Source of the DNA: Burkholderiales bacterium
GTDB taxonomy: Bacteria > Pseudomonadota > Gammaproteobacteria > Burkholderiales > WYBJ01
Direction: 5' to 3'
Length of the DNA stretch: 64,000 bases
Assembly (NCBI GenBank): GCA_020848435.1
Contig: JADLAC010000038.1
Coordinates: 1-64,000 of the forward strand
Shown here: one piece after another, positions 338 through 3,953 of the stretch
Layout of the letters: every line of letters starts with the position of its first letter
Position numbering within the stretch: the stretch's first letter is position 1
Translations under genes and position numbers: made by a program
Notes under the pieces: generated by a model
What the model saw: only the letters and a program-made list of their open reading frames with translations
Databases searched by the model: none
Told to the model about the DNA's origin: nothing

Positions 338-2044
338 GTGAGCACGACCCTGAACGATGGGTACTACGAAGTGGTGTGGCCGCGCAGCCCGCGGCAGATG
401 AAAAAGCAGGCGCTCGCGCCGCGGCTCGAGACGCTCGAGGGCAAGACCATCGCCCAGCTCTGGGACTACCTGTTCCAGGGTGACAAGGTGTTCGATGCAC
501 TGGAAGAGGGGCTCAAGGCGCGTTATCCCGGTGTCCGTTTCATAAGCTGGCGGGAGTTCGGCAATACCCACGGCAAGGAGGAACGCAGCCTGGTGGCGGA
601 CTTGCCGCGGCGCTTGCGCGAGCTGCGCGTCGATGCGGTCATCTCCGGCATGGGATGTTGAGGAAGCTGTACGCCCGCCGTGTTGCGGGCTGCGGCGAAG
701 TGCGAGGAAGCGGGTGTGCCGTCCTCCTCGCTGGTGTGCGAGGGTTTCATGGGTCAGGCGGCCGCGACCACGATCGGCCTGGGCATGAAGCTGCCGCTCG
801 CATTCGTACCGGGGCACACCGGTGCGCAAAGTGCGCAGCAGCTGCGGCGCAACATCCTCGATGTGACCCTGGCACACGTGATCGATAACCTGACCGCGGC
901 GCAGGGCGAAGCCGAAATCGAGCGTGAACCCGGTGCGCGCGACATCGTCTGTTCCGGGGCTTTCGCGGAGATCAACCGCGAGTTCATCGAGCGCGAGTGG
1001 AGCGACGGCTTGCCGATCGTGCCGCCGACGCGTGCTGCTGTCGAGACCTTCCTGCGCCACACCACGCGCGCTGCCGGAGAGGTCCTGGGCGTGATTCTTC
1101 CCGACAGCCGCGCCGCCACCGTATGGAGCGTCGCCGTCAACGGCGTCATGGCCGGGTGCAAGCCGCAGTACATGCCGATCCTGGTCGCGCTGGTGGAAGC
1201 GATGGCGGATCCCGCTTACGGCGTCGAGCACAGCGGCAATACACCGGGCGGCGAGACGCTGATCATCCTCAACGGGCCCATCGTCAAGCGCCTGGGTTTC
1301 AACTACACGCAAGGCGTGCTGCGCGACGGCTTTCAACCGAACACCGCAATCGGGCGCTTTTGGCGGCTGTACTTGCGCAACGTCGCCGGCTTCCTGCCGC
1401 ACAAGAACGACAAGGCGACGTTCGGCAATACCTGGCGGGTCGTGCTGGCCGAGAACGAAGACGTGCTCGGCGCGATCGGCTGGGCGCCGAACAATGTCGA
1501 AATGGGTTTCTCGGCCGCCGACGATACCGTGACCATTGCGCGCTATACGGGCGGCAACCTGATCGCCAACGTGTCGGGCTCGACGCCGCAGGAAATCATG
1601 CCGTATCTCGCCGACTCGCTCCAGCGCCAGATCAACTGGCAGCTCACGTTCACCGTCGGCAGCGCGCCGGGCACCGAACGCCCGCTCGTGCTGTTGTCGC
1701 CGATTCTCGCCGAGATCATCGCCAAGGCAGGCTGGACGAAAGACGATACCAAGCGCTACCTGTTCGAGCACGCGCGCATGCCGGCATGGCAGCTCGAGCG
1801 CCAGTTACGTGACTGGAACTACAAGCCGCTGTGGAACCTCGCCGAGGAGGTGCGCGCCGGCCGCTCGCCGAAAGTATTCGCCGAATCCGAGGATCCGAAC
1901 CGGATGGTGCCCGTGGTCGAGAAAGCCGCCGATATCATGATCGCGGTCACGGGCGACCCGTTACGCACCAACGCCTACGTGTTCGCGCACAACGGCGTGC
2001 TCGGCTATCCGGTCGCCAAACGCATCGGCACAGATCCGATTTGA
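338..2044 (+). CDS. UGSC-family selenoprotein with C-terminal fusion domain; in-frame TGA read as selenocysteine
   Basis: The GTG start at 338 follows a GGAG ribosome site (327-330). Codons run unbroken to TAG-free position 658, then TGA 659-661, then in the same frame to the stop at 2042-2044, giving 568 residues if TGA is decoded. Around the TGA the protein reads M-G-C107-U108-G-S-C111-T-P, exactly the motif that names the UGSC (seleno)protein family, seen in selenoprotein surveys with Cys or Sec. The flanks also fit: a predicted helix before, and after it a C-E-G-F-M-G-Q-A segment and a P-G-H-T segment. A hairpin starts 11 nt after the TGA. From about residue 215 to the end is a second domain opening W-S-D-G-L-P-I-V-P-P, with no function I recognise. 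A redox role for C107/U108/C111 is inferred. The alternative, a nonsense mutation, is unlikely given the exact motif. selA, selB and selC are not in this window. Confidence 0.85.
662..697 (+). promoter_or_regulatory. Candidate bacterial SECIS element
   Basis: Immediately after the in-frame TGA (659-661), bases 673-678 (GCCCGC) pair perfectly with 685-690 (GCGGGC) around the 6-nt loop CGTGTT. The apical loop lies about 18-23 nt from the TGA and has a G in its first two bases. Both features match the known spacing and loop preference of bacterial SECIS elements recognised by SelB. It lies wholly within the coding sequence, as bacterial SECIS elements do. Confidence 0.6.
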
Positions 2045-2090: not shown

Positions 2091-2756
2091 CTACGCACGC
2101 CTCCAGCTTCGCACGCCGAGCAGTGCGAGACCGGCCAGCATCAGGAACATCGCCTTGGGCTCGGGAATCGCGACCAGCACCGTTTCTCCCTGGAGCAAGC
2201 GGAAGTCCTGCGTCAGGGCGACGAACGGCGAGGCGGGCGCGTCGGCATAGAAATAGAAACCGAGCAGTCCGAGGTGCGAATAGGTGGCATCGTCGCCAGA
2301 CGGGATCGGCTGGCTGAAATAGGCCGGCGAGCTTTGATTCACCGGGTCGCGCAGGCGCAGGCTCCCCGGCTCCCAGCTCAAGCCGGCGACGATCGCTTGC
2401 TCGCCCGGGGTCAGGATGTCGTGAGCCCAGTAGATCGCGGCTTTCTCATAGCCTGGAAAAAGGGTACCGAAGGCCGGAATGGGCTGCCCGATAACGCCTT
2501 CGAACAGCGTCTTCTGCAAGTCCCAATTGGTTTCGCTGATCAACGCGGCTGCCCAGACCCGATAAAGCTCGTGGCTGCCATCGACCGCGGTGAGGGTGTC
2601 GTTCGCGACGGCGAAGGCGACCACGGCGGTCGGTTCAGTGTTCTTGACCCCGAGGTAGCCCGTATTGGTGCCGGAGTCGTAATACTCCTCGACGACGAAC
2701 GCGGCTTGCGCCGCCCACGACCACAACAGCAACGCGGCCAGTACGATACTTGCCAT
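2091..2756 (-). CDS. PEP-CTERM sorting domain protein
   Basis: A 221-residue exported protein of unknown function. The start at 2756 is preferred over 2783 because GGGGAG stands six bases upstream of it and the protein then opens directly with a signal peptide (MASIVLAALLLWSWAAQA). The C-terminus has the tripartite PEP-CTERM signal: I-P-E-P, a hydrophobic stretch of about 18 residues (AMFLMLAGLALLGV) and a basic R-S-W-R-R-A tail. Such tails are cleaved by exosortase (EpsH) in exopolysaccharide-producing Gram-negatives. The middle (about 20-190) has no motif I recognise. A sigma-54 promoter candidate at 2848-2862 and three repeats further upstream suggest nitrogen-type sigma control, as known for some PEP-CTERM regulons. 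No exosortase lies in the window; prsT (47552) is 45 kb away. Confidence 0.85.
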   Translation of the reverse strand: MASIVLAALLLWSWAAQAAFVVEEYYDSGTNTGYLGVKNTEPTAVVAFAVANDTLTAVDGSHELYRVWAAALISETNWDLQKTLFEGVIGQPIPAFGTLFPGYEKAAIYWAHDILTPGEQAIVAGLSWEPGSLRLRDPVNQSSPAYFSQPIPSGDDATYSHLGLLGFYFYADAPASPFVALTQDFRLLQGETVLVAIPEPKAMFLMLAGLALLGVRSWRRA

Positions 2757-2847
2757 GCGGTTCTCCCCGACGTTGCGCCACACCCAGCCGGCCCGGCGTC
2801 CACCGTCGGTGTCGAGCTAGCCAGTTCCGTTGCCCGGATTGCCGCAA

Positions 2848-2862
2848 GCAAGCACCGTGCCG
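2848..2862 (-). promoter_or_regulatory. Sigma-54 promoter candidate for PEP-CTERM gene
   Basis: On the minus strand the bases read CGGCACGGTGCTTGC. The sigma-54 consensus is TGGCACG-N4-TTGC, so this site matches GGCACG and TTGC exactly with GG-N10-GC spacing and differs only in the first base. The -12 GC lies about 92 nt before the start codon at 2756, leaving a leader of about 80 nt. Confidence 0.65.
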
Positions 2863-2932
2863 TTGCCAGGCACGAGGCGCGCTAGGCCGACAGCGGCGTA
2901 CGGGCCGCCGTGACTGTCAAGAACATCGACAG

Positions 2933-3094
2933 GTTGCAGCAAGAAGGCGGCGGCGCGCCGATAGACAGCGACTCGGCAAGATGTCTGGCCGACGGCCTTC
3001 ATCGGGTTGCCGCATGAAGGCGGCGGCACGCCGTAATTGCCCAGGCAAGCGCGCTCGCGCATCACGCAAATTGCAGCGAGAAGGCGGTGCGCCG
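2933..3094 (-). repeat. Three phased imperfect repeats, possible activator sites
   Basis: Copies lie at 2933-2960, 3006-3033 (25 of 28 identical to the first) and 3070-3094 (three bases shorter), 73 and 64 bp apart, close to whole helical turns. Each ends in a dyad-like core: CGGCGCGCCG (perfect palindrome), CGGCACGCCG and CGGTGCGCCG. They lie roughly 70-245 bp upstream of the sigma-54 candidate, where enhancer-binding activators bind. The activator role is inferred. Confidence 0.5.
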
Positions 3095-3131
3095 ACGGCA
3101 CCGCGCCGCGCCATGTGGCATCCGGCAGGCG

Positions 3132-3953
3132 TTACTCCGTGATCTTCGCCTTCGAGCGCAGATCGGCAACCACCTTTTGCAGCGCCTGTTGGCTCATCAT
3201 CTGCACGAGCTGGTTCTTCGCTTCGTCGAACGACGGCATCTTGAGCGGGCGCTCGTCTTGCAGTTGGATCACGTGCCAGCCGAACTGGGTTTGCACCGGA
3301 GCCTTGGTCGTCTCGCCCTTCTTCAGCTTGGTGAGCGCATCCGCGAACGGCTTGACATAGCGCGCGGGCGGCGCCCAGTTGAGGTCGCCGCCATTGCCCT
3401 TGGAGCCCGTATCGAGGGACTTCTCCGAGGCGACGGCTTCGAACTTCACGCCCTTGGCGATCTGTGACAGCGCATCCTTCGCTTCCTCTTCGGTCTTCAC
3501 CAGGATATGGCGCGCGCGGTACTCCTTGTCGCCTTGCTGTGCCTTGATCCGCTCGTACTCGCTCTTGAGGGCGGTGTCGTTGGGCTGGTTGCGGCGCAGA
3601 TGATCCTGCAAGAAGGCCGCGACCAGCACGCCTTGACGCATCATGTCGAGCTGCACCTGCACGTCGGCATTCTTGTCCAGACCGCGCCTGAGCGACTCTT
3701 GCTGGATGACCTCGCGGTTGATCAGCTCCTGCTTGAGGAAGCTGCGTAGCTCGGGAGAATCCTGTTGCCCTTGGGCGATGCGCTCGCGCACCAGCAGCTC
3801 GAGCTTGGTCTGAGGAATCGCCTTGCCGTTCACCGTGGCCAGCGTGCCGTTGGTGGGGGAGGGGGAGGCGGCCTTGTCCTGTGCCCCGGCCGGGGAGACG
3901 AACATCAGCGTGGCGAGCTGTGCGGCGAGGAGCAGGGTCGAACGCGTATTCAT
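3132..3953 (-). CDS. Periplasmic parvulin-type peptidyl-prolyl isomerase (PpiC/SurA-like)
   Basis: A 273-residue secreted folding helper that isomerises Xaa-Pro bonds. The start at 3953 is preferred over the longer frame because AAGAGG precedes it and the protein then opens with a signal peptide ending P-A-G-A-Q. Residues about 35-125 form the N-terminal helical region typical of PpiC/PrsA-like proteins. The rotamase domain spans about 145-235, with Y-R-A-R-H-I-L-V at its start, G-G-D-L-N-W in the middle and F-G-W-H-V-I at its end. It sits downstream of bolA and yciB on the same strand, a conserved betaproteobacterial order. Function in outer-membrane protein folding is inferred from the family. 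Confidence 0.9.
   Translation of the reverse strand: MNTRSTLLLAAQLATLMFVSPAGAQDKAASPSPTNGTLATVNGKAIPQTKLELLVRERIAQGQQDSPELRSFLKQELINREVIQQESLRRGLDKNADVQVQLDMMRQGVLVAAFLQDHLRRNQPNDTALKSEYERIKAQQGDKEYRARHILVKTEEEAKDALSQIAKGVKFEAVASEKSLDTGSKGNGGDLNWAPPARYVKPFADALTKLKKGETTKAPVQTQFGWHVIQLQDERPLKMPSFDEAKNQLVQMMSQQALQKVVADLRSKAKITE

Follow-up and report, generated by a model that had tools for sequence, protein, structure and literature searches.

In PrdB and GrdB, the selenocysteine (Sec) subunits of D-proline reductase and glycine/betaine reductase, the Sec residue participates in reductive C-N bond cleavage. Another selenoprotein family, UGSC, was noted in 2008 by Zhang and Gladyshev, including a fusion to a conserved domain termed Unknown_1, and its members are among the commonest selenoproteins of marine and especially of non-marine metagenomes (PMC2398784). 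With respect to whole selenoproteomes, the largest reported for bacteria comprise 57 genes in the Olavius algarvensis Delta 1 endosymbiont and 63 in a Methylomirabilota MAG, and the organisms richest in selenoproteins are mainly anaerobic, with distinct family sets (PMC13188914).

Here, we describe a UGSC gene located in a 64,000-nucleotide stretch of DNA (the window), which represents the first part of contig C38 of a Burkholderiales assembly (5.73 Mb, 89 contigs, 93.6% complete, 2.1% contamination). Sequence comparison makes it very likely that UGA 659–661 of this gene encodes Sec and that the product is a two-domain selenoprotein composed of UGSC and a partner domain. The locus comprises the following features:

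326–330, + strand: AGGAG, likely ribosome-binding site, 7 nt 5' of the GTG at 338
338–2044, + strand: selenoprotein gene of 568 codons including one Sec codon, with GTG start and TGA stop (2042–2044)
368–892, + strand: UGSC domain (PF24696), residues 11–185, from the Pfam match and the AlphaFold2 model
659–661, + strand: in-frame TGA, predicted selenocysteine 108, the U of U-G-S-C
673–690, + strand: SECIS-type hairpin (GCCCGC 673–678, loop CGTGTT 679–684, GCGGGC 685–690), 11 nt after the UGA
944–2041, + strand: C-terminal partner domain, residues ~203–568, ~365 aa
1157–1159, + strand: codon of Cys 274, the conserved Cys of the partner-domain motif AGCxP

Re-translation confirmed the coordinates of a preliminary description of this DNA, as the frame is interrupted solely by this TGA, and ORF calling indeed splits the gene as predicted there (about 107 and 454 aa), yielding a 454-aa ORF at 680–2044 and a frame ending at 661. 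Residue 108 stands in the context I-S-G-M-G-C-U-G-S-C-T-P-A, and the start of the gene is kept in the homologue L015. Close homologues were found in MAGs of Burkholderiales/Betaproteobacteria, with record titles of several referring to lakes and groundwater. Located 5' of the gene are a short perfect hairpin at the contig end (2–22, GCCGATAG-CTATCGGC) and an inverted repeat around ACAACGCGCGC (about 70–175), while 2091–2783 (−), on its 3' side, encodes a small protein with the C-terminal PEP-type sorting tail PEPKAMFLMLAGLALLGVRSWRRA.

The window gene belongs to an already known selenoprotein family, and UGSC fusions are known as well. Membership, as claimed at first sight, is supported by the PF24696 match (E 4e-27, 95.8 bits versus a gathering cut-off of 25) and by the U/C-G-S-C motif at the conserved position of the family; against the narrower NCBIfam equivalog NF041046 (UGSC_fam), the protein scores 41.5 bits, below the curated cut-off of 125. 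In comparison to the described family (PF24696/NF041046; GOS study, PMC2398784), the domain, Sec at the U, Cys homologues and a SECIS element are shared, whereas the score below the NF041046 cut-off, the C-terminal fusion and the presence of 24–53 Sec copies per genome set it apart. The motif context also differs, being GMGC-U-GSCTPA in the window protein versus G-x-G-D-U-GSCTSW in many split UGSC paralogues. The relatives L178, L198 and L177 feature U-G-S-S or C-G-T-S and thereby lack the second Cys of the motif.

No Pfam family matched the partner domain. In the source genome, the partner is fused to UGSC in nine of the 24 UGSC genes, and in a further 14 a homologue of it is encoded by a same-strand neighbour, downstream or upstream, the partner thus being fused or adjacent in 23 of the 24; the remaining gene, C30:179718, is situated close to a contig end. 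An alignment of 30 partner sequences shows strict conservation of the D in D-G-L-P, the Cys in A-G-C-x-P and further positions (G-P, R, N, E and W). In two distant homologues on plasmids of Variovorax and Neorhizobium, no AGCxP pattern was found. This regular fusion or adjacency, together with the invariant residues, suggests that UGSC and partner very probably form one functional unit. The Unknown_1 fusion (PMC2398784) likewise joins UGSC to a conserved domain, a likeness drawn by text description only. The partner is unlike the Grd/Prd subunits searched; one of the 24 members of set A1 matches PF09338 (PrdA/GrdE-type pyruvoyl-forming subunit), weakly at an E value of only 0.04. Class I fumarases gave the best matches to a partner-only model, no more than a weak lead at a TM of ~0.23.

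In the AlphaFold2 model (pLDDT 88.6), the UGSC domain appears as an alternating strand/helix, Rossmann-like fold, with U108 between strand 100–106 and helix 111–124. When PDB and viral structures were searched by Foldseek with the full-length model, no convincing homologue emerged and no thioredoxin ranked among the top matches; a sequence search against solved structures gave no match. At the profile level, hhalign placed 100 UGSC domains on ten PrdB/GrdB-like proteins, Sec on Sec, with a P of 8e-6 over an alignment of only ~68 columns; decoys (shuffled, reversed and unrelated profiles) reached 0.017 or worse. UGSC resembles PrdB/GrdB in the U-x-x-C, the preceding VDAVI-type strand and the E-x-x-G-I/V-P segment after the aligned Sec, but differs in lacking the N-terminal GRDB part and any HMMER match, the window protein matching none of PF07355, TIGR01918 and TIGR04483. 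In the source genome, PF07355 matches lie at loci other than the window gene. Since its match ends at the Sec codon on the Sec-type loci of these genomes, PF07355 is unfit as a direct test of UGSC, a limit addressed by recoded alignments and hhalign. Altogether, the profile comparison links the UGSC Sec region, as a putative homologue, to that of PrdB/GrdB rather than to thioredoxins. The source genome also contains a separate PrdB/GrdB-like selenoprotein with V-U-PNC-T (L129:1267–2607, +, contig C78), which ORF calling cuts at 198 aa.

In view of this PrdB/GrdB link and a model unlike thioredoxin, we favour reductive, Sec-dependent cleavage by UGSC and its partner. By analogy, we tentatively propose, at somewhat less than even confidence, that the Sec selenolate could attack an activated small organic substrate and cleave a C-N or similar bond. 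As one half of a U-x-x-C pair, Sec would be positioned where the central beta strand gives way to a helix, and the substrate could be held between UGSC and the partner domain, with Sec serving as nucleophile or redox centre of a two-part catabolic reductase. Reduction of the oxidised Sec might then proceed through the nearby Cys and a disulfide reductase using NAD(P)H. In this context, a thioredoxin-reductase-like (TrxR-like) gene with CADC was found between selB and selC in the source genome (G000) as well as in G292, a Burkholderiales genome of another family (98% complete, 2% contaminated):

L009:460–1362, − strand, and L282:419–1336, − strand: thioredoxin-reductase-like gene, in the order selA-selB-TrxR-like-selC

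In G292, selA, selB, the TrxR-like gene and tRNA-Sec lie together, and a second, partial selB-like match is located on another contig. The encoded flavoprotein is a candidate electron donor for UGSC proteins and could be the enzyme recharging them. If reductive cleavage by UGSC and partner applies, many diverged paralogues would mean many substrates. The gene neighbourhoods of UGSC loci indicated no specific substrate. Receptors of the tripartite tricarboxylate type (TctC) made up 27 of 126 ORFs near UGSC loci, an apparent enrichment that was rejected because near equals far (15/77 at <2 kb from UGSC, 21/109 at >4.5 kb). The source genome contains 447 TctC-type receptor candidates, and all 150 of those scored were strong.

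Alternatively, UGSC could be a thioredoxin-fold thiol oxidoreductase or peroxidase instead of a PrdB/GrdB-like substrate cleaver, with the selenoprotein still being made. A thiol-redox role of UGSC and partner is possible, as U-x-x-C is typical of redox selenoproteins and a Trx-like fold of UGSC was thought likely in the 2008 study (PMC2398784). However, the predicted sheet of alternating strands and helices with Sec following its strand, the missing thioredoxins among the top Foldseek matches and the hhalign tie to PrdB/GrdB all argue against such a fold, and natural variants without the second Cys are more in keeping with a nucleophile than with disulfide exchange. We regard the thioredoxin reading as rather unlikely and continue to favour reductive cleavage. 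Our UGSC data provide a partner for tests and offer a pointer to the chemistry.

Both readings of the function presuppose that UGA 659–661 is decoded, and Sec insertion at this codon is, on comparative grounds, near certain. TGA is found at residue 108 in more than 60 homologues, including all residue-spanning homologues in genome contigs except L079, which has Cys, and each of the 24 UGSC domains of the source genome features one in-frame TGA, at the Sec position. The preliminary description had named a lack of sel genes and of Cys homologues aligned at U108 as grounds against Sec; neither objection holds, since selA, selB, selC and selD are all present and Cys occurs, besides L079, in L177, L186 and homologues carried on plasmids of Natrinema, Haloterrigena, Variovorax and Neorhizobium. 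In comparison with L015, divergence at codon positions 1/2/3 is 0.19/0.15/0.48 ahead of the UGA and 0.19/0.13/0.47 behind it, a near-equality which indicates that constraint at the protein level extends over the downstream frame; judged from these values, purifying selection acts on both sides of the UGA.

Read-through of UGA is generally partial, and the 107-aa piece would be made in the absence of selenium. This truncated form could even represent the main product, with Sec read-through occurring only under plentiful selenium. We consider this very unlikely, as the piece would stop just short of the active-site motif, in the middle of the predicted domain fold, and the frame 3' of the UGA is under equal constraint.

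Some bacteria have unusual tRNAs reading UGA, and the Cys homologues at position 108 would fit decoding as another residue, namely Cys or Ser. Such a decoding is highly improbable in a genome which encodes a full tRNA-Sec (C29:44489–44579; 75 bits, above the Rfam cut-off, called SeC by ARAGORN) next to selA and selB on C29, as well as selD on C22, with selA, selB and selD all above curated cut-offs, and in which a SelB-type hairpin follows the UGA. Moreover, SelD (L131:1501–2430, −) is a selenoprotein as well, with UGA at the canonical Sec position in GGGUGC. Near selD, a protein resembling a rhodanese-type tRNA 2-selenouridine synthase is encoded (L131 about 2610–3700, +). The possibility of a pseudogene, disrupted by a nonsense mutation or by an error in sequencing, is practically negligible, even though UGA serves as a normal stop in this genome and most of the 24 UGSC genes end in TGA: as the preliminary description had argued against a random nonsense mutation, the same TGA recurs in every own paralogue and in homologues with as little as 60% identity, the third-position excess versus L015 persists past it, and a conserved hairpin follows it. 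UGA 659–661 would hence be decoded as Sec by tRNA-Sec and SelB, with SelB recognising the stem-loop at 673–690.

This stem-loop, just 3' of the UGA and with G/U in its loop, has the form expected for bacterial selenoproteins. Across homologues, synonymous sites in the window-type hairpin are near-frozen, while most of the proteins are only 60–75% identical to that of the window. Ala is encoded by GCC in 77/77 cases (background 36%), Val by GTG in 77/77 (54%), Arg by CGG in 77/77 (16%) and Leu by TTG in 72/75 (17%), and three of the 60 distinct hairpin sequences have A-T in place of G-C as outer pair. Diverged S-x-x-V-H-D paralogues have a second type (GTCGTGG-AGTGT-CCACGAC), also at a spacing of 11 nt, with both bases changed at pairs 1, 2, 4, 5 and 7 and with Ser encoded by AGT in 51/51 cases versus a background of about 5%. 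In L179 and L192, paired compensatory changes are synonymous on both sides. In the 24 own genes, folding of the hairpin region gave a mean of −12.3 kcal/mol, compared to −6.6 when the genes were recoded synonymously (combined p 2e-15). Taken singly, the hairpin of the window gene does not exceed its synonymous recodings in strength (p 0.22), owing to the GC richness of its codons; its SECIS case is one of comparison across homologues. Under the criteria used, no clear hairpin was found in the own-genome paralogues C78a, C2a and C19:13380.

UGSC matches above the cut-off occurred in 40 of 399 genomes sampled from the order. Three relatives from the same genus have 17–24 matches, with TGA in nearly all, and G292 has 58, counts which derive from draft assemblies and whose exact values could be shifted by contig breaks. 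Of the latter, 55 were examined (L227–L281): UGA occupies the Sec position in 53, of which 48 also show the hairpin, and three loci contain an extra stop. No pair of G292 loci exceeds 85% DNA identity over 150 bases, i.e., near-duplicates are missing. In the tree, 19 of the 24 own UGSC genes are nearest to a gene of another genome, which implies that most paralogues are old.

Like the Olavius algarvensis Delta 1 endosymbiont and the Methylomirabilota MAG, these genomes have very many UGA-Sec genes, but here the hosts are Burkholderiales and a single family contributes 24 (source genome) or 53 (G292), an unusually large investment of one bacterium in one enzyme family. Within the literature searched, with most subscription papers outside it, neither 24–53 Sec copies per genome nor the partner pairing, the PrdB/GrdB link or a TrxR-like gene in the sel operon were found described. 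As a whole, it is conceivable, if doubtful, that UGSC represents an unrecognised PrdB/GrdB-related class of Sec-dependent reductive enzymes, present in 20–50 copies per genome in Burkholderiales, with a different organic substrate for each copy and a dedicated TrxR-like enzyme from the selA-selB-selC operon serving them all, and making up most of some of the largest selenoproteomes. Burkholderiales with tens of copies might also be the origin of many metagenomic UGSC proteins. Standard annotation can conceal dozens of such enzymes per genome, as exemplified by the conjugative IncP plasmid p2-T1 of Acidovorax sp. T1, which carries a UGSC gene with UGA and intact hairpin (L221:2501–3958) at a locus that its gene table annotates as no more than a hypothetical protein of 97 aa.
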